Positions 33,974 through 53,200 of a stretch of DNA of 53,876 nt are shown one piece after another. Positions within the stretch are counted from its first letter, which is position 1, and the number at the start of each line of letters is the position of its first letter. The notes under the pieces were generated by a model. It worked only from the letters and a program-made list of their open reading frames with translations. It searched no databases and had not been told where the DNA came from. This DNA comes from an uncultured Paracoccaceae bacterium (GTDB lineage Bacteria > Pseudomonadota > Alphaproteobacteria > Rhodobacterales > Rhodobacteraceae): contig CANMPL010000013.1 in assembly GCA_947499715.1 (NCBI GenBank), positions 1-53,876 of the forward strand. The letters run 5' to 3'. Made by a program: the position numbers and the translations under genes.

Positions 33974-33995
33974 CCCACTCCTAAGCGCACTCGTT

Positions 33996-34031: not shown

Positions 34032-34063
34032 AGCATTCACATCTCTCAAGACTCAGGATTGAT

Positions 34064-34810: not shown

Positions 34811-34831
34811 TCGAGTAAGGATGGTGTCTAT

Positions 34832-35251: not shown

Positions 35252-36714
35252 ATATCAGCTCAAACACTCTGTATGTTTCTGATTTGGATTTCACTTTGCT
35301 GGAGGCTGATGCTTCATTGACTGACGCGGTCGCTGATCGGTTAAATCGTCTCATTGATGACGGGATTCTCTTCTCAATCGCGACCGCGCGCTCGGAACCG
35401 GCAATTCGGCATATAATGGCCAATGTTCGGTTCAATCTTCCAATCGTTGAAGGCAATGGATCGGTCATTCGTGACTTACAGACCGGCGCAGTCAGAAAGA
35501 GCTTTGGTATTGATCAGGATGCCGCCGCTGAAATCAGTGAGGTTTTTGGACGCGCAAAGAAATCGCCGGTTGTTGCAGGGCTTCGAGGTCGGTTTCAGCG
35601 AACCTACTCTCCGGCAGCTGACAACCCAGCTATGCAGAAGTTTCACAACGAAAAAGTAAGGATGCGTTTTCCAGACCTCTATAATGAGGTGTGGGATCCA
35701 AGCAGTAGGGTACATCAGCTCGACGATATCCTGCGTTTCACTTATCTCGGATCGAAAGATGAGATCGACGAACTGGTTGTCCCTATTTCCGCAATCTCCG
35801 ACACCATATTAGCCAACGTTTTCCGGGTCGATTATTGGAACTGCTGGGAACTGCTGATTACGGAGAAATCAGCCAATAAGGGCTCTGCCCTCGCGCATCT
35901 TAAGACCTTGGTCAGAGACGCAACCGGCAACCAAGACCTCAGCATGACCGTTTTTGGAGACGCTGCAAACGACGTTGGGATGTTTGAAGTTGCAGACAAA
36001 TCTATTGCTGTCGAAAACGCTGATGATGCCATCAAGGCCATGGCTCACGAGGTCATTGGAAGACATGATGAGCAGGCCGTTATTAACTACATTGAGCATT
36101 CCCAATTGGGCCAAAAGACGTTGAACTTCTACAACGCGAACGCTGATACTTATGCATCTCACTTGCCGTCCCCTTCTCGGGTGGCTGAGCGTGAGAAATT
36201 TGCAAATCGCTTACCGAAAAAAGCAGACGTGTTGGAAATTGGATGTGGCTCTGGACATGACGCTGAGTTCTTCAAGTTCTCTGGTTTCGAGGTAACCGCC
36301 CAAGACGGTTCATCGGAGCTGGCATCACTTGCAAGCGCCCGAATTGGGTTAGATGTCCTGGTGTGTGACTTCAAAGAGTTAGCGTTCGATAATCAATTTG
36401 ATGCTGTCTGGGCAGCAGCAGCTCTGCTCCATGTTCCAAGAGCTGATTTCATCAAGGTGATGCAGAACATTTTTCGTAGTCTGAGATCAGGAGGAACGAT
36501 CACCGCAAGCTTCAAGCAAAGCGAACATGACTGGACCGACAAATGGGGCCGCTTCTTTTGTGAGATGAATGCGGAACGGCTGAGAGCGTTGTTTTCTGAA
36601 GCTGGGTTCGAAGTTCACGATGTGCGGTCTGTTGATGGATATAGTCGGGACGGCATCGAGACGATCTGGCTTTGGATCGACGCAATGAAGCCTCTTGGAG
36701 TTTCAGCCCCATGA
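35248..36714 (+). CDS. HAD phosphatase fused to a SAM-dependent methyltransferase
   Basis: 488 residues in two domains. Residues 1 to about 275 form a Cof-type HAD hydrolase: motif I SDLDFTLL with the nucleophile Asp, SIATARSEPA, a lysine in SANKGSAL and motif IV FGDAANDVGM. Residues about 290-488 form a class I methyltransferase: NFYNANADTYA, VLEIGCGSGHDAEFF (the SAM site), the acidic AQDGSSE region and WAAAALLHVPR. Such a fusion is uncommon; the two domains may act in sequence or on the same small molecule. It overlaps both its neighbours by ATGA, so it is firmly in the operon. The substrate is unknown. Confidence 0.88.
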   Translation: MNISSNTLYVSDLDFTLLEADASLTDAVADRLNRLIDDGILFSIATARSEPAIRHIMANVRFNLPIVEGNGSVIRDLQTGAVRKSFGIDQDAAAEISEVFGRAKKSPVVAGLRGRFQRTYSPAADNPAMQKFHNEKVRMRFPDLYNEVWDPSSRVHQLDDILRFTYLGSKDEIDELVVPISAISDTILANVFRVDYWNCWELLITEKSANKGSALAHLKTLVRDATGNQDLSMTVFGDAANDVGMFEVADKSIAVENADDAIKAMAHEVIGRHDEQAVINYIEHSQLGQKTLNFYNANADTYASHLPSPSRVAEREKFANRLPKKADVLEIGCGSGHDAEFFKFSGFEVTAQDGSSELASLASARIGLDVLVCDFKELAFDNQFDAVWAAAALLHVPRADFIKVMQNIFRSLRSGGTITASFKQSEHDWTDKWGRFFCEMNAERLRALFSEAGFEVHDVRSVDGYSRDGIETIWLWIDAMKPLGVSAP

Positions 36715-38369
36715 CTGCCATCTTATTCCTATTACAGCTTTTTGGCGCGAGCTTTCTGTTGCTCTTCGCTGTTAAAACAGTTCGCAAAGGGGTCGAAGCC
36801 TCCTTCGCCGGTGAATTGCGAATGTTGTTGCAAGAAACCAATGGAGCGGCTCAATCGGCCTTCTCAGGTTTTCTTTTGGCGATCATGTTGCAAGGTGCGA
36901 CAGCAGTAATTCTGCTAACTTCTGGGATGGTGTCCGCAGGATTGGTCGGGCTGTCCGCTGGTTTGGCGGTTGCGATCGGCGCCGATGTTGGCTCGGCAGT
37001 GGTTGTCAGGCTTCTAACGTTCAACATCGAATGGCTCACCCCGCTCCTACTTTTGCTAGGGGGGTGGCTGTATTTGAGAATTGAGCACAACCGTCTCAAA
37101 GACATGGGGCGCGCATTAATCGGCATTGCGCTCATTTTGGTTTCACTGACAATGATCAGCGAAGCGGTAAGTCCGATCAGGCAATCTGATCTGCTTCCGG
37201 CCGTCTCTAAATACTTGGGTAACGATCTCATCTTGGCCTTCCTGGTTGGCGTGATCTTCACGTTACTCATTCATTCCAGCGTCGCATCCATACTGGTTTG
37301 CGTTACGCTCGTAAGTTCAGATGCGTTGCCATTTGATGCCGGCATGGCATTCATACTCGGCGCAAACGTTGGCAGCGCGTTGATCCCGGTCTGGCTCTTA
37401 CGATCTTCTGAGCGTAGCGAAAAGTTGCTTCCCCTGTTGAATTTAGGTGTCAGAACGCTTGCGGCCGTGCTGGCCATGATCTTGCTGATGTCCGCTGGTG
37501 ACACTTTTCCCGACATACCATGGGTTGAAGGGGCAGGGGGGATCATTCTTATCCACTTGGGTTTCAATGTATCCTTGTTGCCGGTTCTTTTTGCCTCTGA
37601 CTGGCTAGCCAACAACTTTGAGCGCTTATTCACTGGACCGGTTCCGACCGCTGAAGCCGATGGCCTTTTGATGAGGATTGGCGAAAATCAACAAGAAGAC
37701 ATCGATGTACGTGCCGCGATGCGGCGTGATGTTATCGCTCTCTTGGATTTAGTCAGCGCGATGATCTCAAAGATCGGGTTCCCTTTGGAACAACTTGAGG
37801 AGGTCGACGCGAAATCCATCGAAGAGCTGGAAGGTCAGACGAATACTCAGTTTAATTCCATCCGAACTTACTATGCCCGGATATCGAGTTCGGCCACCAT
37901 CAACACGAAGAAGTCCCACTTGCAGGAAATGCGGGCCTTATTGGAATATGCGATACGATTGGAACACTCAGGAAATGTCATGGTTCAACGCATTCTGCCC
38001 GCCGCGCAAATGATGCGTCGTACGCGACTGCAGTTCACAAGCAATGGTAATGAAGAACTTAAGGGCCTATGTGAGATGGCTCTGAGCAACACCTTCTTGG
38101 CATTTGAAGTGGTCTCAACTTGGCAAGCCGAAAAGTCTCGCGATCTCATCGAGCGAAAGGAGGAGTTCTCGCGCTTGGATAGCAGAAGCAGGAAGCGGCA
38201 TTTCAAGAGGATTTCTCAAGGCAACGCCACATCATTGGAGACAAGCGATCTACACTTGGATGTTGGGGCCGCTCTCAAAGAGATTAACAGCAAGATTTCA
38301 ACCATTGCCTATTCAGTTCTAGAGGGCAAAGGTCAGTTGGCAGCAAGCAGGCTGATTGATGAATCTTAA
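36711..38369 (+). CDS. Na/Pi cotransporter family protein with PhoU-like C-terminus
   Basis: 552 residues. The membrane part (about residues 1-300) has the two inverted Na/Pi-II repeats, but where the family has QSS this protein reads MLQGATAVILL; the second repeat has LIHSSVASILV. The C-terminal 230 residues are cytoplasmic and helical, like PhoU. ATG at 36711 overlaps the previous stop. In bacteria such proteins often export phosphate. Its position after phosphodiesterase and phosphatase genes fits removal of released phosphate. The changed motif may alter ion or substrate preference. Confidence 0.88.
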   Translation: MTAILFLLQLFGASFLLLFAVKTVRKGVEASFAGELRMLLQETNGAAQSAFSGFLLAIMLQGATAVILLTSGMVSAGLVGLSAGLAVAIGADVGSAVVVRLLTFNIEWLTPLLLLLGGWLYLRIEHNRLKDMGRALIGIALILVSLTMISEAVSPIRQSDLLPAVSKYLGNDLILAFLVGVIFTLLIHSSVASILVCVTLVSSDALPFDAGMAFILGANVGSALIPVWLLRSSERSEKLLPLLNLGVRTLAAVLAMILLMSAGDTFPDIPWVEGAGGIILIHLGFNVSLLPVLFASDWLANNFERLFTGPVPTAEADGLLMRIGENQQEDIDVRAAMRRDVIALLDLVSAMISKIGFPLEQLEEVDAKSIEELEGQTNTQFNSIRTYYARISSSATINTKKSHLQEMRALLEYAIRLEHSGNVMVQRILPAAQMMRRTRLQFTSNGNEELKGLCEMALSNTFLAFEVVSTWQAEKSRDLIERKEEFSRLDSRSRKRHFKRISQGNATSLETSDLHLDVGAALKEINSKISTIAYSVLEGKGQLAASRLIDES

Positions 38370-38790
38370 CAAAGAGTTTTCTGGCGCAAAGATTGCATTG
38401 CTCTGCGGTGATCAGGTCTTGGTGTATCTGAGGGATGATAAACCAAGTATTCCGTTTCCCAACAAATGGGATCTTGCAGGTGGAGGAAGGGAAGGCGACG
38501 AAACTCCCGAACAATGCGTCATGCGAGAGACATTTGAGGAGTTTGGCCTTAAAATTAGATCGTCGCGGATAGTGTGGAAACGGCGGTACGATAGCGCGAC
38601 GTTAGTTGGCGAGCACGCATATTTTATGGCTGCTAAAGTTACGGAAAGAGAATTAGCTGAGATCAAGTTTGGTGATGAGGGACAATTTTGGCAGTTGATG
38701 ACGACAAGTGAATTCATCAACCATCCTGATGCCATCCCTCAACTACAGGTTCGTTTAGCGGCTTATTTGAGTGAGGGTAGGAGGCAATGA
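38359..38790 (+). CDS. NUDIX hydrolase
   Basis: 143 residues with a canonical NUDIX box, from GGGREGDETPEQC to RETFEEFGL (G-x5-E-x7-REUxEExGU). It hydrolyses a nucleoside diphosphate linked to another group. Its ATG lies inside the end of the previous gene, and a TTG just upstream is less likely. The substrate may be a nucleotide sugar or damaged nucleotide; it cannot be chosen from sequence. Confidence 0.92.
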   Translation: MNLNKEFSGAKIALLCGDQVLVYLRDDKPSIPFPNKWDLAGGGREGDETPEQCVMRETFEEFGLKIRSSRIVWKRRYDSATLVGEHAYFMAAKVTERELAEIKFGDEGQFWQLMTTSEFINHPDAIPQLQVRLAAYLSEGRRQ

Positions 38791-40134: not shown

Positions 40135-40586
40135 ATGCGCGGGCATTCCGTTGTAGAGGAGCCTGTCTGGGCATTTGACTTCGTGTACGACAAACTTAGC
40201 AATGGGCGCAGCTATAAGATGCTGACCGTTCTGGATGAGTACGACCGGCAAGCGCATGCCGTCACGGCACCCCGGAATACATTCGATCAGACAATGTCCC
40301 CGAGTTCGTCGCCGCGGCGATGCAGAACTGGTTGGTCAAGGTCAGTATCAAGCCGGTCCGCATCTATCCCGGATCACCTTGGGAAAATGGTTAAAACGAA
40401 CGATTCAATGGAACTCTGCGCAGGGAGGTTCTCAATGCCGAGTGGTTCACAACAACAAAGCAGGCTCAGATCGTCATCAGTCACTGGCTCAGGCAGTACA
40501 ATCACACACGCCCTCATCAGGCGCTCAACATGCGGCCACCAGTCCCCGAAACTATAATCAGAAATGGCCCAGAACTTGGGCGCTAG
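40135..40586 (+). pseudogene. Broken IS3-family transposase (OrfB remnant)
   Basis: The first frame reads VWAFDFVYDKLSNGRSYKMLTVLDEYDRQAHAVT and then is lost; a second frame reads PEYIRSDNVPEF and SPWENG, a TAA stop at 40392, then NERFNGTLRREVLNAEW, HTRPHQALNMRPPVPE to the TAG at 40584. An internal deletion of roughly 60-80 bases, a frame change, a stop and the loss of glycine in SDNG show it is dead. The other parts of 39924-40911 show nothing recognisable, apart from a weak hairpin just after the SDR gene. Confidence 0.85.
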
Positions 40587-40911
40587 ACGGACTATCCCCA
40601 AATCCAGGACTCTTCAGGAGAGCAGGTCAATAGACCTCATGGCTGAATACAGCCCCTCTAAGTTCACTATCTTCCGTTATCTTAGTGAAAACCAAGCCTG
40701 AGCTCCACTCAAGAACCCCGATCCGCGCTTAACGCCCTATTTTGCACCGAGCAGCAGTCGACCCCCAGCGGGTCATACAAGAGCCTTTTTTCGCGTAGTC
40801 TTTCCGTGCGCGGTGTTCTGTATGTAGTCCCAGACGCAAGAACGGACCGCATCGAGATTAAGTGGCTTTGAATAACGTCGACTCAAACTGAACCACAGCA
40901 TCATCGCCACA

Positions 40912-42282
40912 TCAACAATTGGGAACGTTGACCGCGAGGCCCCCTAGCGAGGTTTCTTTGTACTTCATGCTCATGTCGGCACCGGTTTCGCGCATTGTTG
41001 CAATTGCAGAGTCCAGCGGGACAACATGCGTGCCGTCTCCGCGAAGCGCCAAGGACGCGGCGGTGACAGCTTTCACGGCGCCCAAGCCGTTGCGTTCGAT
41101 GCAGGGAACCTGCACCAGACCCCTGATCGGATCGCAGGTCATGCCAAGGTGATGTTCAAGGGCAATTTCTGCTGCAGCCTCAACCTGACCCGGTGTGCCA
41201 CCCATGACCGCTGCGAGGCCGGCTGCGGCCATTGCACTGGCGGAGCCAACTTCGGCCTGGCACCCGCACTCAGCGCCGCTGATCGACGCGTTGAACTTAA
41301 TGATTCCGCCGATCGCCGCTGCGGTCAGGAGATACGTTTCGATATCGGCCGAAGTTGCCTCGGGAACGTGGTCGAACCAATAGCGCAAAGTGGCGGGGAC
41401 GACGCCAGCGGCACCATTGGTCGGCGCAGTTACCACTTGCCCCCCTGCTGCATTCTCTTCGTTGACCGCCATCGCATAGACGCTAATCCACTCCGTTACG
41501 ACGTGGCCGGCGGTTTGCCTCATGCCGCGTTCAGTACAGAGGCTTGTGTAGATGTCAGCGGCGCGACGCCTGACGTCCAACCCACCTGGGAGGACCCCAC
41601 GTGTCGATAGCCCGCGATCCATGCAAGTCTTCATTGAGGTCCAAATTTTGAAGAGCCCATCATCGAGTGCAGCCGGCGGGCAGCCCGCAAGTTCATTCGT
41701 ACGCTTAAGCTCAGCGATGCTCTGCCCCGAGATTTTGCACATCTCCAACAAGGCCTCTGCAGAGGTAAAAGGAAACGGCACATCGACTGTCTCGGTGGGC
41801 ACATTGGCTTGGAATTCGCTGAGGGTCTGCACAAATCCGCCGCCTATAGAAAGGTAGGTCTCTTTCAGCAAGTCAGATCCGTCAGCAGAAATTGCCGTGA
41901 GCTTCATCCGGTTCGCGTGGCCTTCGAAAGGTGCGTAAAAGTCAAATGAAAGGTCGGTATCCGGGTCGAAATGAACCGATCCAAAGCCCGGTGGGGCGAG
42001 CGTTCTTGTTGATTTGATGCTTTCCAGCGCAGACTGAGCGATTACAGGATTGTAGGTGTCGGGCGCGAAACCCGCAAGGCCAAGGATTGTCGCGCGGTCC
42101 GTTCCGTGTCCGACGCCCGTGAAGGCGAGGGAACCGTAAAGCGTTGCCTTTAGTCGCGCTGGAGCCATGTCTTGCGATCTTAGGTCATTCAGAAAACGCG
42201 CTGCCGCCACCATGGGTCCCATCGTATGGGAGGAGGATGGACCGATTCCAACCTTAAAAATATCAAAAACGCTTATGAACAT
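40912..42282 (-). CDS. sdaA: L-serine dehydratase (iron-sulfur, single-chain)
   Basis: A 456-residue [4Fe-4S] enzyme converting L-serine to pyruvate and ammonia. [19 protein letters not shown] starts the protein, and the cluster cysteines are in [13 protein letters not shown] and [19 protein letters not shown]. An open frame extends upstream to 42333 through the end of the LuxR gene; the family N-terminus fixes the start at 42282, 13 bases after the LuxR stop, so the two are co-transcribed. The neighbouring amino-acid transporter and SerB-like gene point to serine use as a carbon or nitrogen source. Confidence 0.95.
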
Positions 42283-42295
42283 CGGGTAAGTCTGG

Positions 42296-42934
42296 TCAGT
42301 CGGCGGACCAGCCGAGCGCATTCGCATGGGCAATGGCCTTTGTACGCGAGGTCGTTCCGAGTTCTTTTAGGATCGCAGAGACATGGGTCTTGATCGTGCT
42401 TTCTGACAGATCCAGTTCTCGGGCAATTTCCTTGTTGGAAAGCCCTACGCACATAAGCGACAGAACGTCGGATTGGCGCTCCGTCAAAGAAATTTCTTCG
42501 ATCGGCAATGACGTGGGCGCGGTTTCGCCTTTGTCTGCTTTCAGAAAACGTCTCGGCAAAAATATCTCCCCTTGCAGCATAAGGGGCACGGCATTCACGA
42601 GGATTTGTGGATCTGCTGACTTCGGGATGAACCCGTCAGCCCCGTTCGCCAAAGCGGCATTGATAACGTAATTCTCTTCGGTCCCCGAAATCATAGCGAC
42701 GGGTGTCCCCGGATGCGCTTGTTTCAATCTGGTCAATCCATCCATCGCGGCGGCATCAGGTAGTTTGACGTCCATCAACACCAGGTCAACGTCAGCGTGG
42801 TCATGTAGATAAGCCAGCGCCGTTGCGACTGTCTCTGCGCCCTCGACGCGCATATCAGAAAACGCGCTTTCCAGCAGGTTCTTTACGCCCGTGCGTATCA
42901 GATGATGATCGTCAACAATCAAAATGACGGACAT
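42296..42934 (-). CDS. NarL/FixJ-type response regulator
   Basis: 212 residues. The receiver domain has VDDHH, the phosphorylated aspartate in LVLMDVKLPDA near residue 55, and the switch Ser and conserved Lys (ISGTEE, PKSA). The C-terminal LuxR helix-turn-helix has LTERQSDVLSLMCVGLSNKEIARELDLSESTIKTHVSAIL. It is directly upstream of sdaA and within 10 kb of the histidine kinase gene, so it is its likely partner and sdaA a likely target. Confidence 0.95.
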   Translation of the reverse strand: MSVILIVDDHHLIRTGVKNLLESAFSDMRVEGAETVATALAYLHDHADVDLVLMDVKLPDAAAMDGLTRLKQAHPGTPVAMISGTEENYVINAALANGADGFIPKSADPQILVNAVPLMLQGEIFLPRRFLKADKGETAPTSLPIEEISLTERQSDVLSLMCVGLSNKEIARELDLSESTIKTHVSAILKELGTTSRTKAIAHANALGWSAD

Positions 42935-43059
42935 GCCACACGCCTTTTCAGATTTCGGTCTAACAATATTAGCAGATTACCTGCAGGACTGTTACTCTTG
43001 GGAAATTTTCCGAAATATTGGACTATCATGATCCTTGGAGAGTTAAGTTCGTGCCTCAT

Positions 43060-44688
43060 TTAAGTTCCGATCTTGGACGCAGTGTGGATGTGGTAGAAAA
43101 TTCTTGAAAAGTCCCGCAATAACTCATTGTGCAAAGCCGACGTGTTGACAGCTGAAACATCACGGGCCTCAAGGCGGGCGAAATGAGATGACCGGCTGTG
43201 ATCTACGAGCTTTTCCAGATCCTTGCGCAGCTTTTGGATTGTTTTTCTGACCTTATAGTCATTTTGCAGCGCGGTGGACAAGGCGACGTGCAGCCCGTTT
43301 CGAATGACTTCCAAAATCCCCAAAAGTTCAGCTTCGCCGTCTTCTGAAAACCTGTCCTGAGCATTTGAGGTGGTGCCAAATTGGTCGGCTGCATTCGCGA
43401 CAAGATCGGAGACATGCCAAAGGTTTGTCGTCAGAAGCAGCAAGTCCATTACGGTTTTGCTGTCCGCATCCGAAATCTCTTCGCGGCTTATTTCGGTCAA
43501 GAACAGTTTGACCTCTTCGGCGATCAACGTGACGCGCTCTTGATTGATGTAGACGATCTCAAGGTCTGCCGGGAGATTAGAAGAAATGCATTGCGTCAGA
43601 ATTGCAAGAGAACCCTCGATGCATTCGTTGATGCGATAGAGTTCCCGCGTCGTACTTGTCAGCGCCAAAGCCGGTGAGCTGAGAAGCTCGCGGTCCAGAT
43701 ACTTTGTTGTAGGTTCCACGCCCGGCGGAAGCGTGTTGGGGAAGAAATGTTCCATCAGCCGCGCGGCTGTTCCGACCCATGGCAAAAAGATCAGGGCGAC
43801 GAGGCAATTGAAGCCCATATGGGCATGCAGCATGATCTGCTGATTGTCCGAATACGGCGCCAGCTGTTCCACGATTATCGGCAAAAACGGCAATAGGATG
43901 ACCGTTGCGATGAGTTTGAAACACGCATTGCCAATAGCTGCGTGCTGCCCCTGTCCGCTAGCCTGAAGCGTGGCCAAGATCGGCGGCAAAGTCCCACCGA
44001 TATTGGCACCAAGCACCATGGCAAGCCCTGTCCCAAACGGGATCACGCCAGAGGCGGACATTGCGGCAATCAACAAAACGACGGCAAGGCTGGAATGGAC
44101 AAGCCACGTCAGAATGGCTGTAAGGAACACGGTCAGTAAGACCTCGCCTTCCAACGCAGCAAACACATATCCGAGAACTTCGGACTGTCGAAGCGGTTCA
44201 GATGAAGAGCGCAAGAGGCTGAGCGCCAAAAGAACGAGCCCTAGGCCCAACAATGCACGACCTATCTGGCGGCGGGCATATACGGATGAGCGCCCATGCA
44301 GCATGACACCGACAAAGATCGCGACATAAGCAATCCAGGTGGGATTGAACGAGAGAATTTGCGCCGCAATTGACGTCCCGATATCTGCGCCCAGCATGAC
44401 TGCGAGCGCCACCGTCGTCGTCACCAAACCCTTTGCCGCAAATGCGGATATGATCAGCGCGGTTGCCGTGCTGCTTTGCAGGACAACCGTGATACCAAGT
44501 CCCGCGACAAAAGACCGGACCCGTCCTGTCAAGGACTTGCCCAAAGCAACCCGCAACGATCCGCCAAAGGCCCGCATGACTCCGGTACGCACCAAACGAA
44601 TGCCCCAAAGCATCAACGCGACAGATCCTGCGATTTGCAATAATACTATTGTGCCGGAAATCGCCCCGTCTCCTTCTAATTGATGCAA
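43060..44688 (-). CDS. Na/Pi cotransporter family protein with PhoU-like C-terminus
   Basis: 542 residues with both family motifs intact: VVLQSSTATALII and LVHSSLAVVLLI. A PhoU-like helical cytoplasmic tail follows from about residue 340. It lies 3 bases after aapP and so is joined to the amino-acid transporter operon. The start is uncertain: the first codon is a TTG at 44688, and a strong AAGGAG inside the coding start would fit a slightly later, non-ATG start. A role in exporting phosphate released from phosphoserine is one reading; transport of another ion or an organic substrate is another. Confidence 0.88.
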   Translation of the reverse strand: MHQLEGDGAISGTIVLLQIAGSVALMLWGIRLVRTGVMRAFGGSLRVALGKSLTGRVRSFVAGLGITVVLQSSTATALIISAFAAKGLVTTTVALAVMLGADIGTSIAAQILSFNPTWIAYVAIFVGVMLHGRSSVYARRQIGRALLGLGLVLLALSLLRSSSEPLRQSEVLGYVFAALEGEVLLTVFLTAILTWLVHSSLAVVLLIAAMSASGVIPFGTGLAMVLGANIGGTLPPILATLQASGQGQHAAIGNACFKLIATVILLPFLPIIVEQLAPYSDNQQIMLHAHMGFNCLVALIFLPWVGTAARLMEHFFPNTLPPGVEPTTKYLDRELLSSPALALTSTTRELYRINECIEGSLAILTQCISSNLPADLEIVYINQERVTLIAEEVKLFLTEISREEISDADSKTVMDLLLLTTNLWHVSDLVANAADQFGTTSNAQDRFSEDGEAELLGILEVIRNGLHVALSTALQNDYKVRKTIQKLRKDLEKLVDHSRSSHFARLEARDVSAVNTSALHNELLRDFSRIFYHIHTASKIGT

Positions 44689-44691
44689 TCG

Positions 44692-45462
44692 TCAGTGTGG
44701 CAAGATTTGGCTGAGGAACTTCTGTGTCCGGTCGACCTTTGGGTTGTCAAAGAACGCGGCCGGCGCGTTCTCTTCGACGATCTCGCCTTCGTCCATAAAG
44801 ATCACTCGGTCTGCGACGGACCTTGCGAATGACATCTCGTGTGTAACGCACAGCATGGTCATTCCGGTCTCTGCCAGTTCGATCATCACGTCCAAAACCT
44901 CTTTGATCATTTCGGGATCAAGCGCAGAGGTGGGTTCGTCAAAGAGCATGATTGACGGGTTCATACAAAGCGATCTGGCAATGGCGACACGTTGTTGCTG
45001 ACCGCCCGAAAGCTGTCCGGGGTATTTATCCTTTTGCTCTGCGATGCCGACGCGCGTCAGGTATCGAATGGCCGTTTCTTCAGCCTCGGCCCTGGGCATG
45101 TTGCGTGCCCAAACAGGCGCAAAACACAAGTTGTCAAGGATTGTCATGTGCGGGAATAAATTGAACTGCTGGAAAACCATGCCAACTTCGCGACGGATAC
45201 TGGTAATGTTCTTCATATTCTTATCCAGCAAAGTGCCGTTGACCGTGATCTTGCCGTCTTGATGCTCCTCTAGATGGTTGATGCATCGGATCAAGGTTGA
45301 CTTGCCTGAACCGGACGGACCGCAGATGACGATCCGCTCTCCTTTGGCGACGGTTAAATCGATGTCCTTGAGGACATGAAAATCGCCGTACCATTTGTTG
45401 ACGTCTTGCATCTCGATGATGGTTTCGCCTTCGGCAATGCTGCTTTCAAGTTTGGGTGTCAT
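44692..45462 (-). CDS. aapP: General L-amino acid ABC transporter ATPase
   Basis: 256 residues. Walker [23 protein letters not shown], signature [15 protein letters not shown], Walker [16 protein letters not shown], and [22 protein letters not shown]. It is of the AapP/GlnQ type. It couples ATP hydrolysis to uptake by the two AapQ and AapM permeases, whose genes are just upstream. Confidence 0.93.
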
Positions 45463-45486
45463 TTCAGGCTCCTGCGGGATATTCTG

Positions 45487-46584
45487 TTAGGTATGGGCAT
45501 TCGGCCCACGCTGCTCGAGTTGCCGGCCATAAAGGCTTAGGCTGTAGCAGATCAGCCAATAAACGAAGGCTGCAAAAACGTAGGCTTCAGCTTGGAAGCC
45601 AAGCCAATCGGTGTCGAGCGCCGCACCCTTGATCATGCCAAGAAAATCGAGAAGGCCGACAATGATGACCAGCGAAGTATCCTTGAACAGCGCGATGCAA
45701 CGCCCGATCAACGGCGGCAGTACATGGCGCAGGGCCTGTGGGACGATGACGAAAGTGACTGTGTAGAGCGACGACACACCAAGCGACAGTGAAGCCTCGG
45801 ACTGGCCTTTTGGTATAGCTTGCAACCCGCCGCGTACGACCTCGGCCATGTAGGCTGACGAAAACAAGATCATGCCGATCTGGATGCGCAGCAGATTGTT
45901 GATCACCAGTTCTGGCGGAAGAAACAGCGGCATCATGACGGAGGCCATGAAAAGGATCGTGATGAGCGGCACGCCGCGCAGTAGCTCGATAAACGTCACA
46001 CAAAGCACTTTGATCGCGGGCGAACCATAGTGCCGCCCGAGCGCGAGCAGAATACCAAGCGGGATCGAGACGATCACGCCAACTAATGCCAGCATGATGC
46101 TGAGCATCAACCCGCCCCAGACGGATTGGTCAACCTCTTGCATCCCAAAGGCACCCCCAATCATCATGAGTGCAAAGATTGGCAAGATGGCCCAAGCGGC
46201 AATCAGGGTAACCCCGCGGATCCGATCTGTGTAGGTCAGCCCAGCGAGTACAAGCAAGGCCAACCCCGCCAAACCAGGGCGCCAAGACAGATCTTGCGGG
46301 TATACCCCGATCATCAGGACCTGAAACTTTTCGACGATAAAGGGCCAGCAGGCACCACCGTTCTGGCGGCAAACCTCATCATCGCCTGCGTAGGTCGCCG
46401 AAAGAAACAGCCACTGGATCAAGTTCGGCACGAATGACAAAAGCAGCGCCGTGATAAAGAGCGTGACAATGGTATCGAACCAACTTCCGAAAAGGTTGCT
46501 GCGCAACCAAGAAATCGCGGCGACCTGGCGCGTGGGTGCAGGGCGTGCTGGAGACGGTTGAAAGGAAGTCGTTGTGTCTTTCAT
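45487..46584 (-). CDS. aapM: General L-amino acid ABC transporter permease
   Basis: 365 residues with about eight membrane segments and the amino-acid permease loop LLRGVPLITILFMASVM and GGLQAIPKGQSEASLSLGVSSL. AGGTAGG precedes the ATG at 46584, which is chosen over an upstream frame start. It works with AapQ. Confidence 0.93.
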   Translation of the reverse strand: MKDTTTSFQPSPARPAPTRQVAAISWLRSNLFGSWFDTIVTLFITALLLSFVPNLIQWLFLSATYAGDDEVCRQNGGACWPFIVEKFQVLMIGVYPQDLSWRPGLAGLALLVLAGLTYTDRIRGVTLIAAWAILPIFALMMIGGAFGMQEVDQSVWGGLMLSIMLALVGVIVSIPLGILLALGRHYGSPAIKVLCVTFIELLRGVPLITILFMASVMMPLFLPPELVINNLLRIQIGMILFSSAYMAEVVRGGLQAIPKGQSEASLSLGVSSLYTVTFVIVPQALRHVLPPLIGRCIALFKDTSLVIIVGLLDFLGMIKGAALDTDWLGFQAEAYVFAAFVYWLICYSLSLYGRQLEQRGPNAHT

Positions 46585-46588
46585 GGTC

Positions 46589-47761
46589 CTACCTTTCAAC
46601 GATTTGGACACGTGCGTTCAGCACATTCATGGCAAGCGAAATGACAAGATTGATGGTCAGATAGACGGCCATCCACATTGCGATGATCTCGATCGCCTGA
46701 CCGTTCTGACCAATGATCGTGCCGCCGATTGAGACCATGTCCGGATACCCAATCGCGACCGCGAGCGAGCTGTTTTTGACAAGGCTGGCATAGTCATTTG
46801 TGGTCGCGGGAATAGTCACGCGCAGTGCTTGCGGCAGCAGAACTATCCGAGTGACAACCCCCTGCGAAACGCCAAGCGCATTGGCCGCTTCGATTTGTCC
46901 GGCGTGGACCGATTGAATGCCACTGCGGACGTTCTCGCCGATGAACGCAGCAGTATAGAGCATGAGCCCAATGAGGAGTGCAGCAAATTCAGGTTTCAGC
47001 GCCAGCCCGCCCTTGAAGTTAAAGCCTTTGTAGACGGGCATTTCGCTGCCGATGGGCCGATCTGTTGCAAGAAACGACAGCGCGCACAGCGTGCCCAGAA
47101 TAACAAGCCCGCCCCAAAAGCCGTGGACGGATCGCCCGGTGCGCAACTTGTAGGCACCGGCCCACCGCCAGAACGCGAAAGCCAATCCAAGCGCGACAAT
47201 TGACGCCGCCGCAAAGACGGCAAACCCGTCCTCGGCCAGAGGTCGCGGCAGATAAATCCCACGCTTCGAAATGTAATAGCCCTCAGCAATCGCGATGGCT
47301 TCGCGCGGATGCGGCAAGGACGCCAAAACGACTGTATAGACGAAAAAGAGTGTCAGAAGCAGGGGAAGATTGCGTAGCGTTTCGATATAGACCGTCGCGC
47401 ATTTGGCCAGAAGCCAATTGTTGGACACGCGCGAAACCCCAACGACGATGCCCAAGATTGTTGAGAGCACGATGGCAAGCGCTGAAACCAGAAGCGTATT
47501 CAAGACGCCGACCAAGAACGCGTAGCCGTAGCCGCGCGATGGATCGTAGTCGATCAGCGAGTCCCCGATGGGCAGCCCGGCCTCGTGCCACAGGAAAGCG
47601 AAACCGCTTTCGATCCCGCGAATTTCAAGGTTCTTCTGCGTATTCGCGAACAGCAGATACGCAACCCCGAGGACCGCGAAAAGGACACCTACCTGCAAGA
47701 TGAGAGAGCCAAGCGACTCTAAGGAAAACCCTGACTTGGGGTTTCGTTTTGTCGTGTTCAT
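46589..47761 (-). CDS. aapQ: General L-amino acid ABC transporter permease
   Basis: 390 residues with about eight membrane segments, the periplasmic region typical of AapQ around residues 150-180 and the coupling loop GQIEAANALGVSQGVVTRIVLLPQALR. It follows a hairpin after aapJ and directly precedes aapM (4 bases). Confidence 0.93.
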   Translation of the reverse strand: MNTTKRNPKSGFSLESLGSLILQVGVLFAVLGVAYLLFANTQKNLEIRGIESGFAFLWHEAGLPIGDSLIDYDPSRGYGYAFLVGVLNTLLVSALAIVLSTILGIVVGVSRVSNNWLLAKCATVYIETLRNLPLLLTLFFVYTVVLASLPHPREAIAIAEGYYISKRGIYLPRPLAEDGFAVFAAASIVALGLAFAFWRWAGAYKLRTGRSVHGFWGGLVILGTLCALSFLATDRPIGSEMPVYKGFNFKGGLALKPEFAALLIGLMLYTAAFIGENVRSGIQSVHAGQIEAANALGVSQGVVTRIVLLPQALRVTIPATTNDYASLVKNSSLAVAIGYPDMVSIGGTIIGQNGQAIEIIAMWMAVYLTINLVISLAMNVLNARVQIVER

Positions 47762-47784
47762 TTTGATTTGCCTTGATCAGTGTG

Positions 47785-47808
47785 GCGGTCGGCCCGAAGG
47801 CCGACCGC
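47785..47808 (-). other. Strong intercistronic stem-loop between aapJ and aapQ
   Basis: A perfect 10-bp stem, GCGGTCGGCC against GGCCGACCGC, around the tetraloop CGAA on the plus strand (TTCG on the transcript), in the 73 bases between the aapJ stop and aapQ start. There is no T-run. A UUCG tetraloop is unusually stable, so it probably protects the aapJ transcript and keeps binding protein in excess of the permeases. Confidence 0.7.
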
Positions 47809-47834
47809 GCCTGCTCGACTTGGGAGGGATGCGA

Positions 47835-48848
47835 TTAGCGGATCGGCATCGCGTAAAGCAGACCACCTTCGGTCCATTGCGCGTTCACACCGCGCTCTAG
47901 CCCCAAAGTTGACGTCAGATTGCGGTCGTAAATCTCGCCGTAATTGCCAACGGCGGACAATACGTCGACCATCCAACTAGTTTCCAAACCTATGAAACCG
48001 CCAGTGTCGCCCGAAGCGCCCAGCATACGCTGAACCGCTGGGTTGCCCGAATTGGCGGCCACGTCTGCGACATTGGCTTGCGTTACGCCGAGCTCTTCTG
48101 CGGTGATCAGGCCGTAAACAACCCAGGTCACGATATCTTTCCACTGGTTGTCACCATGGGCCACAAGCGGAGCAAGTGGTTCTTTGGAAATAACATCAGG
48201 AAGGATTGTGTGTTCGGACGGGTCGGCGAACCCGGCCCGGAACGCTGCGAGCTGGCTCGAGTCAGTAGTCAAGGCATCGCAACGACCAGAGGCATAGGCC
48301 TCAACCGCTTCGCGTTTGCCTTCAAAGACCACGGGTTCCAAAGTCAAGCCATTCGCGCGGGCGAAATCAGCAAGGTTCAATTCGGTTGTTGTGCCGGTCG
48401 TCAGGCAAACAGTCGCTTCATTCAACTCGGTGGCGCTGGAAATTCCCGCTGCCGCACTCGTCATGAAACCTTGGCCATCGTAAAACACGACTGCTGTGAA
48501 ATCGACGCCCTCGGCGCTGTCGCGTTTCATGGTCCAGGTGGTGGTGCGCGACGTCATGTCGACTTGGCCGCTCGACACAGCTAGGACTTTTTGCTTCGAG
48601 GCAAGTGGCACGAACCGTACGGCGTTGCTGTCGCCAAGAACGGCGGCCGCGACTGCACGGCAAATATCGGCGTCGAGCCCTTCCCAGAGCCCATCTGAAT
48701 TCGGATTGGAAAAGCCCGGCACGCCTTCGCTGACGCCGCAGGCCAGTTCACCCGCCGCCCGCACATCCTCTAGCGTTCCGGCGGTTGCGGTGCTGGCCCC
48801 AGCAAGTGTCGCTACCGCGACAGCGGCGATTTTGGTTGAGTTTCGCAT
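47835..48848 (-). CDS. aapJ: General L-amino acid ABC transporter periplasmic binding protein
   Basis: 337 residues with a signal peptide of about 23 residues ending STATAG. Family features are ELACGVSEGVPGFSNPNSDGLWEGLDADICRAVAAAVLG, SRTTTWTMKRD, NYGEIYDRNLT and the end GGLLYAMPI. An open frame runs upstream to 49016, but the signal peptide and a GGGAGAC site fix the start at 48848. Binds a range of amino acids; the exact range is unknown. Confidence 0.94.
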   Translation of the reverse strand: MRNSTKIAAVAVATLAGASTATAGTLEDVRAAGELACGVSEGVPGFSNPNSDGLWEGLDADICRAVAAAVLGDSNAVRFVPLASKQKVLAVSSGQVDMTSRTTTWTMKRDSAEGVDFTAVVFYDGQGFMTSAAAGISSATELNEATVCLTTGTTTELNLADFARANGLTLEPVVFEGKREAVEAYASGRCDALTTDSSQLAAFRAGFADPSEHTILPDVISKEPLAPLVAHGDNQWKDIVTWVVYGLITAEELGVTQANVADVAANSGNPAVQRMLGASGDTGGFIGLETSWMVDVLSAVGNYGEIYDRNLTSTLGLERGVNAQWTEGGLLYAMPIR

Positions 48849-49203
48849 TGTCGTCTCCCAGTTGTTTTGATGCCTAAACGGCACCTCATTATTGTCGGGC
48901 TTTGGCCCAGATATCCGACCGTCAAAATCCCACGGCCACTGGGCAAGGCTACGATTGGAAGGGGCGCATCGAACATTGGTCAGAGGGACCATCAGACCGA
49001 CAAAGGACGCGCCCAAGGGCGTTCATCATCGTTCAACCGGACTAGTCCGTTGGGATGAGGTTCGAAAAATTGCAGCAAAAACAGAAATTTGGACTCATCT
49101 AACTACATGAAAGACGGAGAGCGCGTCTGGTCCTTCTGACGTATTTGTCAAAGGCCGCTGCGCAGGCCATGGTTTTGCTGTGTCACGGAACAGGGCCAAA
49201 TTC
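48849..49203. promoter_or_regulatory. Divergent promoter region between aapJ and the SerB-like gene
   Basis: 355 bases with no supported gene. It must contain promoters for both arms. The clearest element is the palindrome at 49034-49053; a shorter dyad GGGC-TTT-GCCC sits near 48898. Confidence 0.5.
49034..49053. promoter_or_regulatory. Palindrome in the aap/serB-like divergent promoter, candidate LuxR operator
   Basis: The core CGGACTAGTCCG is a perfect 12-bp palindrome and its flanks CAAC and TTGG extend the dyad with a one-base slip. It is the best dyad in this intergenic region. The NarL/FixJ-type regulator encoded in the locus is the natural candidate to bind it. Confidence 0.45.
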
Positions 49204-50073
49204 ATGAGAAGTCAGCTCGTTGTGTTGGGTGAACCATCTGCCCAAGAAATTGAACAATTCGCGCGCGCGATTGAGAACGCGACGCAGGTCGAAGGAATTC
49301 GCCGGGAAGGCAATGCACTCACTTTGAACACAGATAAAGACAAGGTTGACCGTGCAACTATTCACCGGTTGGCCGAGGCCACGAACTTTGATGTCTGGAT
49401 CAAGGCACCAGAAGTTTTGCCGATCCGGTTGTTTGTGGCAGACATGGAAGCCACGATCATTCAGGACGAAATGTTGGACATCCTCGCGGATCAACGTGGG
49501 GTCGGCGACGAGGTTGCCCTAATCACCGCCCGTGCGATGGCCGGAGAGATCGACTTCGTACAGTCACTCATTGAAAGGACACGCCTTCTGGCCGGAACGC
49601 CAGCAGCTCAGCTTGAGGATCTTTGCGGTCGCATAAGATATACACCCGGTGCGCAGGTCCTGCTGACCGAGCTGCGCAAACGCAGTGTGAAATCGGTTCT
49701 TGTCACAGGTGGTTATGGGGTTTTCGCGCGAGCTGTTGTCGGGGACTGCGGGTTTGATGAAGTTGTTGCCAACGCACCGGTCCTGTCTGGTGGTGTTATG
49801 ACAGGCGAACTTGAACACCCGATTTGCGGCGCAGAGACCAAACGTAACGTTCTGTTAGAACAATGCGAACAACTTGGGATCGATCCAAGTGCCGCCTGCT
49901 GTATCGGGGACGGTGCCAATGATGTATTGATGCTGCAAACTTGTGGGTTTCCGGCAAGTTATGCAGGAAAGCCCGTCGTCCGGGAGGTTGTGGATTTGAA
50001 CATCACGCAAGGAGACCTGAGCACGCTTTTGCAGGCTCTTGATGCGCACAATCCTGAGGTCGTGCAGGCATGA
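49204..50073 (+). CDS. SerB-like HAD protein (phosphoserine phosphatase family) with altered motif I
   Basis: 289 residues. After an N-terminal ACT-like segment of about 75 residues comes the HAD core: motif I reads ADMEATII, with Asp80 kept but Glu82 in place of the second Asp of the family DxDxT. Motif II is VLVTGGYG, the conserved lysine is in ETKRNVL and motif IV is CIGDGANDVLML. SerB hydrolyses phosphoserine to serine. The second Asp is the acid/base, so activity may be reduced or changed. The ATG at 49204 has AGGG 8 bases upstream; a GTG at 49180 is the alternative. The stop overlaps the next start (ATGA). Confidence 0.82.
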   Translation: MRSQLVVLGEPSAQEIEQFARAIENATQVEGIRREGNALTLNTDKDKVDRATIHRLAEATNFDVWIKAPEVLPIRLFVADMEATIIQDEMLDILADQRGVGDEVALITARAMAGEIDFVQSLIERTRLLAGTPAAQLEDLCGRIRYTPGAQVLLTELRKRSVKSVLVTGGYGVFARAVVGDCGFDEVVANAPVLSGGVMTGELEHPICGAETKRNVLLEQCEQLGIDPSAACCIGDGANDVLMLQTCGFPASYAGKPVVREVVDLNITQGDLSTLLQALDAHNPEVVQA

Positions 50074-51065
50074 TACTCCGTTCCGTCCTTACGCTGGGTC
50101 TCATGATGCTCGGCTCTGCGTCGGCCCAGACAACTGGCGAAACCCTGTCTGCGGTCCAAAGCAGAGGGTATCTTGTCTGCGGTGTTGGCATTGACGATGT
50201 CGGGTTTGCGACCCGGCAAGCAGACGGTCGTTGGACAGGGTTTGACGTGGATTTCTGCCGCGCCGTTGCTGCGGCGGTTCTTGGCGATGCTGAGGCAGTG
50301 GAATTTGTGCCGCTTGATAGTCTGAACCGATTGAAGGTTCTTCAGGACGGCAAGGTCGATGTCCTGTTTCGGACCACCACCTATAACTTCACACGCGACG
50401 TGACCCTCGGTTTGGAATTTCCAGCCATCACATATTACGACACCCAAAAGGTGCTGGTTTTTGCCGATACAGGTGCGTCGCGTTTGGCGGATCTGGATGG
50501 GATGACGCTCTGTGCGAATTCGGGAACCACGAGTATCGACAATATCCGCATAGCGATTGATCGCGCTGGCATCGACGTCGACATTCTAGAGATCGCCTCG
50601 CAATCCGGGCGGTGGCGCGCATTTTTCGGGCGTGAGTGTGAAGCCGTGACAGCAGACGGCAGCGATCTGGCCGCGCGCGTTGCTAGCCAACCGCAGTACC
50701 GGTCCGACTTTAGCTTGCTTGAAGATGACGTATCGAATGAACCCTTGGGCGCGGTCGTACGCCAATCAGACACCGAATGGGTGCATATCGTGCGATGGGT
50801 TGTGAACCTGACAATTGCGGCGGAAGCCAAGGGCGTCGCTCAGAACAGCGATTTGGACCAGATTTCCGCGATGGGTCTGCCAAGCGGGGCCGCTCTTGAA
50901 CTGACCGACGAGTGGGCGGAGAGCGTCATCACCGAAGTCGGAAACTATGGTGAAATTTTTGAACGCAATCTGGGGACTGGCTCTGCACTGAAACTGCAAC
51001 GTGGATTGAATCGTCTTTGGTCTGATGGCGGGCTCATGTATCCATTGCCGATGCAGGCGCCGTGA
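50070..51065 (+). CDS. AapJ-like periplasmic amino-acid binding protein, probable sensor subunit
   Basis: 331 residues with a signal peptide ending GSASAQTT. It matches AapJ throughout: YLVCGVGIDDVGFATRQADGRWTGFDVDFCRAVAAAVLGDAEAVEFVPL, RTTTYNFTRD, EVGNYGEIFERNLG and an end of GGLMYPLPMQ. It has no transporter genes of its own and overlaps by a GTGA with the histidine kinase gene, so I infer that it binds a ligand and presents it to that kinase. The relation with the kinase resembles the known TorT/TorS pair in layout only. Confidence 0.85.
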   Translation: MILRSVLTLGLMMLGSASAQTTGETLSAVQSRGYLVCGVGIDDVGFATRQADGRWTGFDVDFCRAVAAAVLGDAEAVEFVPLDSLNRLKVLQDGKVDVLFRTTTYNFTRDVTLGLEFPAITYYDTQKVLVFADTGASRLADLDGMTLCANSGTTSIDNIRIAIDRAGIDVDILEIASQSGRWRAFFGRECEAVTADGSDLAARVASQPQYRSDFSLLEDDVSNEPLGAVVRQSDTEWVHIVRWVVNLTIAAEAKGVAQNSDLDQISAMGLPSGAALELTDEWAESVITEVGNYGEIFERNLGTGSALKLQRGLNRLWSDGGLMYPLPMQAP

Positions 51066-53200
51066 CAGGGTTGCTGCGTCGCCCCCATAGTGTTGGACGT
51101 ATTGTCTTTGTTTCGCTGCTTGCGATGTCATTAGGTGCCGCGACAATTGGGTTTGTGGCGGTCTTTGGCATCCAATCCTTCCGGCAAGAATTTGATCGCA
51201 TGATTGCCGTTGATCTCCCGCAAGCAACTGTTGCAACACGTCTGAATGCCGAGGTCTCGGGCCTGACCAACCTTGTCGGGCTGCTTTTGACCGCCGATTC
51301 CGAAATCACCCTTGGAACAATTCGCATACAAACTGGCGACCAGCTTGATGCCATCAACCGGCAAAAAGACTTGCTCCGCGACTTTGCCCTGAGGACAGGG
51401 GAATTTGCCGAAATCGACCAAAGCCTGAACGAACTGGTGCGCAATCTTGGTGCCTTGACCACGCTGAGCGTCAGACGGTTGCGTGCAGAGGAAGCGTCTA
51501 GGCGACTTGGGAACGAGCTTCGCACGATGGTCAGAGCTACACCGGGCAATGAAAGTTATCTTCTCTGGTATCTTGAATTAGAGGCGACCACGCGTCAAAG
51601 CCAGATTAATCAATCCGAAGAAGTATTGAAGCAGCTTGGCCTTGGGCAGACAGAACTCGGCCGAAACATCGTCCAACAGCGTCGTGCCTTGCTGGATATC
51701 GAAACTCTCACCCAAGGGCGGCTGACGCAACACACACAGCTTTCGGAGCGGCTGACCGACGCAACGCGGTTCATGTCATCGCGCCTTACGACCGATGCCA
51801 ATACACGCAGCGCATCCATTCGATCCCTCATCCAACGCAACCTCTATTTCATCCTCGCCTGTTTTCTGATTTTCGCGACCATCGGAGCATTCATTTATTC
51901 TTATCTCGACAAGAACGTGGTCGGGCGAATCCAGAATCTGACGCATAAGATGAACGATTATGAGGGTCGGCAATTTCCCGAAACACCCTCAGCCAATGAG
52001 ATCACGCGGATAGAGACATCATTTTCCAACATGGCCGCTGCTATATCGGAACGCGAAGCACGACTGGTCGCTTTGAGCGAAACCGCCACCGAGGCGCAGC
52101 GTGAGGCCGAAAAGGCAAATCTGTCAAAGTCAACTTTGCTGGCCGCGGCAAGCCACGACCTTCGCCAACCCGTTCATGCAATGGGCCTTCTTATTGGCGG
52201 CATAGATCGCGAAGGGCTGAGCGAAGCGTCGCGCGAAGCGGTGGATCACCTGGCGGACCTCACTCAGGAAACTGTTCGGCTGTTCAACTCGGTCCTCGAC
52301 CTCTCCAAACTCGAAGCAGGAACATTCATCGCGACATTGGAGCCGATCGAGCTTGGTGCAATCCTCTCACGCCTTGAATCCGATCTCAAACCAAGGGCGC
52401 TGAATGCCGACGCGGATCTGAAGTTTGCGCGCCTTCCAGGAGACACGTTCGTTAACGCCGACGAAGATGCCTTGTACCGCATCCTGAGCAACTTGATCGT
52501 GAACGCTATCGACTACGCAAATGGTGGCGACATAACTTTGTTGGTCGAAGAAAGTTCCGATTTTTTGACACTTGTCGTGTCGGACAATGGCCCGGGACTG
52601 GAACTAAAAGGAGACCACACACCAACCGATGCCTCATCTGCGCCCAATAGCTACGGGCTGGGTTTGTCGATCAGTTTTGCTTTGGCAACAGCCATGAAAA
52701 CGAAACTTTCCATTTCCACCTCTGACGGGCGCGGCGCGCGATTTGTCTTGCCATTGCAAAGATGCATCAAGGAAGGAAATCAAATACCAACAATGCCCGA
52801 TGATAGGCAGTCATTCGAACCTTTAGTTGGTTTAGAGGTTGTTTACCTTGAAGATGACCCTAACGTTAATCTGGCAACATCAGAAGGTTTGATGCGCCTT
52901 GGCTGCAGTGTTTCCAGTTGCCGGACCAGCAAAGAAGCGATTTGTGCGATTGAGCGCAAGCAAACGCCCTTTGTCCTGATTACCGACCTCGACCTCGGCC
53001 GCGGGTTTTCGTCGGACGGACTAATCGCTGGAGCCCTCGAAACTGTACCGCTTCTCACCGCGACCATCATCACAACAGCGACTTCACCGAAAGCCGCGCG
53101 TCATTGGGCTGGGGTCACAAACGTTCAGGTGCTAGAGAAGCCTTTCAAAATTGGTCGATTGGCAAGTCTGCTCCGTCATGTCGTGAAGGCAACGTCATGA
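51062..53200 (+). CDS. Hybrid sensor histidine kinase
   Basis: 712 residues. TM1 at about 14-37, a periplasmic helical sensor region of some 220 residues, TM2 at about 262-285, HAMP, the H-box AASHDLRQPVHAM with the phosphorylated histidine, an ATPase domain with NLIVNAIDYAN, VVSDNGPGL and SYGLGLSISFAL, and a C-terminal receiver with YLEDDPN and the aspartate in ITDLDLG. There is no Hpt domain. It starts with a GTG overlapping the stop of the binding-protein gene. The likely output is the LuxR response regulator at 42296. Confidence 0.92.
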   Translation: MTGLLRRPHSVGRIVFVSLLAMSLGAATIGFVAVFGIQSFRQEFDRMIAVDLPQATVATRLNAEVSGLTNLVGLLLTADSEITLGTIRIQTGDQLDAINRQKDLLRDFALRTGEFAEIDQSLNELVRNLGALTTLSVRRLRAEEASRRLGNELRTMVRATPGNESYLLWYLELEATTRQSQINQSEEVLKQLGLGQTELGRNIVQQRRALLDIETLTQGRLTQHTQLSERLTDATRFMSSRLTTDANTRSASIRSLIQRNLYFILACFLIFATIGAFIYSYLDKNVVGRIQNLTHKMNDYEGRQFPETPSANEITRIETSFSNMAAAISEREARLVALSETATEAQREAEKANLSKSTLLAAASHDLRQPVHAMGLLIGGIDREGLSEASREAVDHLADLTQETVRLFNSVLDLSKLEAGTFIATLEPIELGAILSRLESDLKPRALNADADLKFARLPGDTFVNADEDALYRILSNLIVNAIDYANGGDITLLVEESSDFLTLVVSDNGPGLELKGDHTPTDASSAPNSYGLGLSISFALATAMKTKLSISTSDGRGARFVLPLQRCIKEGNQIPTMPDDRQSFEPLVGLEVVYLEDDPNVNLATSEGLMRLGCSVSSCRTSKEAICAIERKQTPFVLITDLDLGRGFSSDGLIAGALETVPLLTATIITTATSPKAARHWAGVTNVQVLEKPFKIGRLASLLRHVVKATS

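Follow-up and report, generated by a model that had tools for sequence, protein, structure and literature searches.

A 53,876-nucleotide window of DNA from an uncultured Paracoccaceae bacterium, the entire contig C13 of its own genome (G000, 44 contigs), carries ten genes in two divergent arms. We interpret them, with about an even chance of being right, as a transferable cassette for detecting and using an acidic phospho-amino acid from outside the cell, O-phospho-L-serine being the likeliest candidate. One arm encodes an AapJQMP amino-acid importer, a sodium/phosphate (Na/Pi) cotransporter-family protein, a LuxR-type response regulator, and an L-serine dehydratase (SdaA). The other encodes a SerB-like phosphatase, a second AapJ-like binding protein (AapJ2), and a hybrid histidine kinase. 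An original prediction, made from the letters of the window, had named these ten genes and their arrangement, and both were borne out: the open frames of 10/10 genes are present, and family searches gave the same names for all of them. The set itself is genuine and uncommon, recurs in more than one family, and makes functional sense as a whole. The interpretation placed on it as a whole by that prediction, namely a circuit for sensing and using serine or phosphoserine, is partly supported.

Conservation of the gene set

The SerB-like protein was used as a query over genome contigs, and 80 of 138 confirmed loci were kept. A single locus among these 80, L033 from Rhodobacteraceae bacterium F11138 (G778), holds the cassette genes together; beyond SerB, the other 79 loci, many of them short, showed only scattered ATPase, dehydrogenase, or kinase matches. 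L033 contains nine of the ten genes in the same order and orientation, with regulator, Na/Pi, AapP, AapM, AapQ, and AapJ in one arm and, divergently, SerB, AapJ2, and kinase in the other. The identities to the window are 75% (regulator), 72% (Na/Pi), 92% (AapP), 87% (AapM), 86% (AapQ), and 84% (AapJ), and 54% (SerB), 72% (AapJ2), and 61% (kinase) in the sensor arm. The predicted overlaps in the sensor arm of the window are exact, ATGA at 50070-50073 (serB/AapJ2) and GTGA at 51062-51065 (AapJ2/kinase), and the same overlaps occur in L033.

Searching with the kinase sensor brought up two further cassettes, L123 (G651) and L166 (G823), which belong to another family of the class. In both, an AapJ2-kinase arm diverges from AapJ, AapQ, AapM, AapP, SerB, and the regulator, and AapP is 73% identical to that of the window. 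The serB gene lies behind aapP in these two loci, versus at the head of the sensor arm in the window and L033. The common core is thus present in four loci spanning at least two families (f1, f155). Since the kinase sensor was the bait for L123 and L166, the SerB, AapJQMP, and regulator found there are unbiased; likewise, with SerB as the bait for L033, all other genes of that locus are.

Co-conservation of the arms in relatives, a check named beforehand, was therefore seen in L033, L123, and L166, but it does not extend through the family: the kinase sensor turned up in one of six genomes drawn from the genus and in one of 394 drawn from the family, the window's own genome both times (F11138 lay outside the draw). 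Across the class, 4/385 genomes matched the sensor at an expect value (E) of 1e-5, namely the own genome and those holding L120 (G651), L121 (G523), and L122 (G452). An AapJ-like gene lies upstream of the matched kinase in L120 and L121, and in L122, as read by eye, the kinase adjoins another kind of binding protein. Within the order of G651, 37/61 genomes matched at E 1e-4, with strong matches in G651 and G823 only (1e-158 and 1e-116; next 7e-15).

The grouping of all ten genes under one theme held for a core of importer, sensor, regulator, and SerB, and was revised for the remainder, as sdaA had no match in L033, L123, or L166 (1/4 cassettes) and the Na/Pi gene occurs in 2/4, the window and L033. 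These counts indicate that the core consists of phosphatase, importer, and sensor rather than serine deamination, and that the serine dehydratase is an add-on.

SerB follows the importer and the sensor together. All four AapJ2-kinase loci beside AapJQMP carry SerB, versus none of the seven pairs of an AapJ-like protein and a related kinase without AapQMP (L124, L167, L168, L169, L170, L173, and L174, the last with its kinase match placed from the scan of the order of G651; L171 and L172, on contigs below 4 kb, were left out). Furthermore, 0/7 ordinary AapJ loci (L126, L222-L227; L222 only 8.4 kb) showed a SerB, kinase, or regulator match. The surroundings of the cassettes differ, with a dehydrogenase (serA by eye) a few genes away in L123 and a flavin adenine dinucleotide (FAD) oxidoreductase, a BKACE protein, and an aminotransferase in L166, which speaks against SerB being present through a serine-pathway locus.

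These patterns bear on the idea that the genes are chance neighbours left by a transfer, forming no circuit. The rarity of the cassette and the transposase-like frames seen by eye near the region would suit it, but nine genes are the same in L033, the core recurs rearranged in another family, and the genes are tightly spaced and overlapping; we consider it scarcely credible.

The extra SerB

The four cassette SerBs score 161.7 (window), 168.1 (L033), 219.7 (L123), and 220.7 bits (L166) against TIGR00338, all over its cut-off of 144.15, and G000, F11138, and G651 each have a further SerB over the cut-off elsewhere in the genome. In 14 genomes of two genera, counted with the incomplete G820 left out, two SerBs were found in 3/3 cassette genomes and one SerB in all 11 without a strong sensor match (Fisher p 0.003, kinship ignored). 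In G651 and G823, the SerB outside the cassette lies next to the same gene (miaA, by eye), and this shared neighbour marks the cassette SerB as the extra copy. Its confinement to cassette genomes among those counted upholds the prediction that SerB belongs to the set.

The cassette SerB shares with the HAD-IB SerB enzymes (PDB 7qpl, 1f5s) the family score, the nucleophile, the Lys, the metal-binding Asp pair, and the substrate Glu and Arg. It differs from them in being a second copy outside a serine pathway, in overlapping the sensor operon, and, in the window and L033, in having Glu for the second Asp of motif I. E97 and R133 of the window SerB align with the Glu and Arg of 7qpl and are kept in related SerBs; judging by the alignment, we take them to correspond to Glu20 and Arg56 as numbered in PMC6321591. 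This Glu and Arg are reported to bind the amino and carboxyl groups of phosphoserine (PMC6321591).

Motif I, DxDx(T/V), reads DMEAT in the window and L033 and DMDAT in L123 and L166. A dead enzyme owing to DMEAT was considered and dropped, since the same Asp-to-Glu change occurs in SerBs outside cassettes (L034, L065, L070, and the separate SerB of G651), and a loss of activity should not be concluded from it. This also affects the possibility that SerB is a regulatory rather than a catabolic protein, one that adjusts the kinase in response to phosphoserine inside the cell. The overlap of serB with the sensor genes in the window and L033, together with the replaced catalytic Asp, would fit such a role. 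However, serB stands in the transport arm with a DMDAT motif in L123 and L166, and the Glu variants extend to non-cassette SerBs. We hold this to be very improbable. Thus, of the earlier suggestion that SerB acts on or monitors phosphoserine, mere monitoring is disfavoured, the substrate Glu and Arg being kept.

Alternatively, the cassette may serve a different phospho-amino compound or a look-alike, such as phosphothreonine, phosphoethanolamine, or cysteate, with SerB acting on that ligand or having drifted in specificity. The SerBs of the window and L033 form a divergent clade with DMEAT, and at the place taken by sdaA in the window, L033:1-2568 encodes, beyond the regulator, a PF03601 membrane protein and an aldehyde dehydrogenase. 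We take PF03601 to be a family of possible sulfur-anion exporters. Nevertheless, the SerB residues for the amino and carboxyl groups of serine are kept, the SdaA of the window points to serine, and the PF03601 gene lies on the opposite strand, outside the shared block. This alternative therefore appears improbable, although less so than a regulatory SerB.

Trees were built from 81 of the 87 gathered SerB rows (those of ≤150 aa, of ≥500 aa, or with X were dropped, L065 among them, and one G000 row entered twice) and from 23 hand-chosen rows. In them the cassette SerBs formed two well-supported pairs, and all four were united in 0% of 200 bootstrap trees. Two independent recruitments, as suggested by these trees, are not claimed, because an approximately unbiased (AU) test on the 23 rows did not reject one origin of the cassette SerBs (p 0.3).

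Importer and sensor

The importer set is complete (SBP_bac_3 binding protein, two permeases, and ATPase). G000 also has a separate housekeeping AapJQMP (G000:C14) and another sdaA (G000:C3); the cassette thus amounts to duplicate genes with a sensor added. The cassette AapJ is 52% identical to the housekeeping AapJ. A profile of the four cassette AapJs, scored on up to five candidates per genome, gave 686 (G651) and 674 bits (G000) for two proteins that are rows of the profile itself, so that these high scores are partly by construction, and ≤453 bits for every other protein among the matches listed (385 genomes), with none between. Counted from a start at 48887, the cassette AapJ differs at positions 54, 56, 112, 115, and 121, among others, from the letter found in 27-30 of 30 housekeeping copies. 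Position 100, which aligns with an Arg of the glutamate-binding protein 5eyf, is Lys in 4/4 cassette AapJs and Arg in 30/30 housekeeping copies and 4/4 sensors. On this alignment, the change appears compatible with an acidic side chain of the ligand.

The AapJ2 gene adjoins the kinase gene in the window, L033, L166, and, with a broken frame, L123. In the latter (L123:10093-11107), the frame stops early and its last 39 residues lie in another frame, reflecting a broken copy or an assembly error; L166 holds an intact relative.

The periplasmic sensor of the window kinase is predicted to be all-helical, with confident middle helices and modest overall quality (predicted local distance difference test, pLDDT, 72; predicted template modelling score, pTM, 0.53). 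In a fold search with this model, five of the six top-ranking PDB entries were TorS (E 4e-3 to 4e-2, prob 0.99-1.00). Additionally, a profile comparison aligned the sensor with the kinase of L168 (E 4.6e-13, 318 columns, 21% identity, partly in the membrane-HAMP region), whose own sensor passes the Pfam TorS_sensor_domain cut-off. This predicted likeness to TorS supports the earlier proposal that the binding protein and the kinase form a sensor. As TorS works with a periplasmic binding protein, AapJ2 probably presents its ligand to the kinase.

Related pairs, in which an AapJ-like gene diverges from a TorS-like kinase, were observed at L167:7770-11104, L168:8149-11508, and L173:9144-12460. Urocanase and N-formylglutamate amidohydrolase genes flank the L168 pair (Pfam), and similar neighbours were seen by eye in L167 and L173; these pairs are possibly a histidine-sensing version. 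They suggest a general amino-acid sensor set placed beside matching catabolic genes. In L124:9743-14286, two AapJ-like proteins in a row lie upstream of a related kinase.

Such pairs also bear on the simpler explanation that an ordinary amino acid (acidic, or serine) is sensed and imported, with SerB and SdaA adjusting the serine pool and no phospho-compound entering the cell. AapJQMP resembles an amino-acid importer, the L168 pair stands beside histidine-use genes without SerB, the Na/Pi gene is not universal in the cassettes, and the AatJQMP-AauSR system is reported to respond to glutamate and aspartate (PMC7386598). This explanation leaves unaccounted for, however, the extra SerB, present in the cassettes and in none of the 11 cassette-free congeners, and the Na/Pi gene in the importer operon of two cassettes; moreover, the window would both make and degrade serine. 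We judge it unlikely, though it is the strongest of the alternatives.

Regulator and divergent promoter

A LuxR-type regulator is also present in L033, L123, and L166, and in all three aapJ diverges from the sensor arm as in the window. Phosphorylation motifs are present in the window kinase and regulator. This joint presence in four cassettes, together with the motifs, suggests at the sequence level that the two are partners. The kinase receiver is weak in Pfam (E 3.6e-4, 21.1 bits, below the 30.2 cut-off), and no Hpt domain was listed for the window kinase in the Pfam search.

The divergent promoter of the window holds two copies of GGYCRRARGGACYA, one with a mismatch, and that of L033 holds two. 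No other match at ≤1 mismatch occurs in the window or L033, and shuffles reached two copies in 3/100 and 0/100 cases. A 12-mer search with two mismatches for an operator common to the four promoters returned two overlapping AT-rich words (0 or 1 in 12 shuffles) and not this candidate site, and was set aside. Scans for promoters and terminators yielded no excess over shuffled sequence.

Proposed pathway

In the pathway that we propose, the compound would bind to AapJ2 in the periplasm and be presented to the hybrid kinase through its TorS-like sensor. The kinase would phosphorylate the LuxR-type regulator, which would act on the shared divergent promoter and induce the AapJQMP genes, together with those for Na/Pi and SdaA in the window strain. 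Imported phosphoserine would be dephosphorylated by the cassette SerB; in the window strain, SdaA would deaminate the serine to pyruvate and ammonium, and surplus phosphate would leave through the Na/Pi protein.

The presence of an importer together with a dedicated SerB and a dedicated binding-protein sensor implies that the substrate is a serine-like amino acid carrying a phosphate. Its dephosphorylation inside the cell frees phosphate, which would explain the Na/Pi gene in half of the cassettes; in the window, Na/Pi and SdaA fit the two products, phosphate and serine. Family searches found no serA or serC among the ten genes, and salvage therefore suits the set better than biosynthesis.

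Several observations weigh against this reading. The ligand is deduced mainly from the neighbouring SerB, in which the second motif-I Asp (general acid/base) is Glu in the window and L033, and the pocket changes of AapJ are by themselves no sign of phosphate, one of them adding a Glu (position 54). Only four cassettes are known, and both product-handling genes are missing from L123 and L166. The sensor model is of modest quality, 0/623 fold matches fell below E 0.001 (best 4.2e-3; TorS TM-scores 0.28-0.54), and a Pfam scan of the window sensor gave no family, so that the TorS relation is a likeness and not a formal membership; the sensors of L123 and L166 are ~25% identical to that of the window. 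Finally, the candidate operator was found post hoc from an alignment and is a lead only, with one site at two mismatches in the L123 promoter and none in that of L166.

Taken further, the phosphoserine reading describes a dedicated, horizontally moving pathway in which free O-phosphoserine both acts as a signal and supplies carbon, nitrogen, and phosphorus, with its own receptor, kinase, importer, and phosphatase, to which some strains add deamination and phosphate disposal. We put this fuller version at somewhat below an even chance. If it is true, some alphaproteobacteria feed on free phospho-amino acids, which they recognise and take up whole through a dedicated inducible system, and such an importer with its own sensor could be useful where phosphoserine is fed to cells. 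The cassette also points to a wider amino-acid sensor group, with an AapJ-like binding protein and a TorS-like kinase beside catabolic genes, as in the histidine-use-like setting of L168.

Relation to known systems

AauR is reportedly an enhancer-binding protein, going by a paper title (PMC7962211), unlike the cassette regulator, which consists of a receiver and a GerE domain (LuxR type). In the AatJQMP-AauSR system of Pseudomonas, a kinase and a regulator control an amino-acid importer, and the binding protein is needed for the full response (PMC7386598). The cassette resembles it in that genes for a sensor kinase and a regulator lie beside those for an amino-acid ABC importer. One binding protein serves transport and perhaps sensing in that system, whereas the cassette has a second one with the kinase; the available part of the report names no SerB or Na/Pi protein (PMC7386598), whereas the cassette has SerB and, in two of four cases, Na/Pi. 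AauS has been likened to DctB, and the cassette sensor is predicted to be all-helical.

TorT has a type I fold, and TorS carries an Hpt domain. The all-helical TorS sensor works with TorT in trimethylamine N-oxide sensing (PMC8534201). By its predicted likeness, the cassette may share the two-bundle helical kinase sensor, and its kinase gene adjoins that of a periplasmic binding protein. It differs in that the partner is a family 3 amino-acid binding protein and not TorT-like, in the absence of a detected Hpt domain, in the LuxR-type regulator, and in its targets, which would be importer and catabolic genes. The cassette would join the principles of both systems and add a phosphatase and a binding protein devoted to sensing.

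YjbB is a member of the Na/Pi family. It has been reported to promote phosphate export (PMC11389368); the cassette Na/Pi protein is a similar transporter located in an importer operon, and its export role is putative. Phosphoserine uptake as such is not new, because it is reported for E. coli PhnE, where it is stimulated by low phosphate (review PMC4394545). Free phosphoserine enters the cell in both cases, but PhnE is a Pho-regulon transporter, whereas the cassette would supply an unrelated importer with a receptor, a regulator, and a phosphatase of its own. It has also been speculated that PstS of SAR11 might bind phosphoserine (PMC12421899). No dedicated ligand-sensing system for a phospho-amino acid turned up in the open-access literature searched.

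Locus layout and neighbouring genes

The features of the cassette are listed in Table 1. For aapJ, the ATG at 48848 is a likelier start than the listed TTG at 49016, and sdaA likely begins at the ATG at 42282, 13 bases beyond the regulator stop. Within the importer operon, the longer gaps are those ahead of the regulator (125 bases) and between aapQ and aapJ (73 bases); the others are short.

Table 1. Genes and candidate regulatory sites of the cassette, with positions in the window.
Feature	Position	Strand	Evidence
sdaA, L-serine dehydratase, second copy in genome	40912..42282	-	TIGR00720 582.7 bits (cut-off 345.1)
LuxR/NarL-type response regulator	42296..42934	-	PF00072 and PF00196 (receiver and LuxR/GerE)
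Na/Pi cotransporter-family protein, candidate phosphate exporter	43060..44688	-	PF02690 139.5 bits; NF037997 129.5 bits (cut-off 50)
aapP, ABC transporter ATPase	44692..45462	-	PF00005 (ABC_tran)
aapM, permease	45487..46611	-	PF00528 (BPD_transp_1)
aapQ, permease	46589..47761	-	PF00528 (BPD_transp_1)
aapJ, transport binding protein	47835..48848	-	SBP_bac_3
Divergent promoter region between arms, 331 bases	48849..49179	.	Flanked by aapJ and serB
Candidate regulator site GGTCAGAGGGACCA, found after looking	48978..48991	+	Motif occurrence in divergent promoter
Second copy of candidate regulator site, one mismatch	49128..49141	-	Motif occurrence
Second SerB, phosphoserine phosphatase-like HAD protein	49180..50073	+	TIGR00338 161.7 bits (cut-off 144.15)
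AapJ2, putative sensory binding protein, no permease genes of its own	50070..51065	+	SBP_bac_3; adjoins kinase
Hybrid histidine kinase, TorS-like periplasmic sensor at ~residues 38-262	51062..53200	+	HisKA, HATPase_c, C-terminal receiver

The cassette appears to be movable. Its base composition is no outlier (guanine-cytosine content 55.0% versus 54.1% for the window), and a plasmid collection gave no match to the kinase sensor and only SerB and AapJ matches <60% identical. Transposase-like frames were noted by eye at 11409-12395, 16562-17269, 25764-26663, and 40135-40633, the last just outside the cassette; the frame 40135-40557 had no Pfam match.

The same contig contains, at 30095-38790, an organophosphate-type module with an ABC importer, a GDPD phosphodiesterase, a HAD-methyltransferase fusion, an Na/Pi protein, and a NUDIX protein. 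That one contig has two importer operons, each accompanied by Na/Pi and by a phosphatase or phosphodiesterase, may reflect a theme. The fusion is a single open frame, at 35248-36714, that joins a methyltransferase domain to a HAD phosphatase domain (Hydrolase_3).

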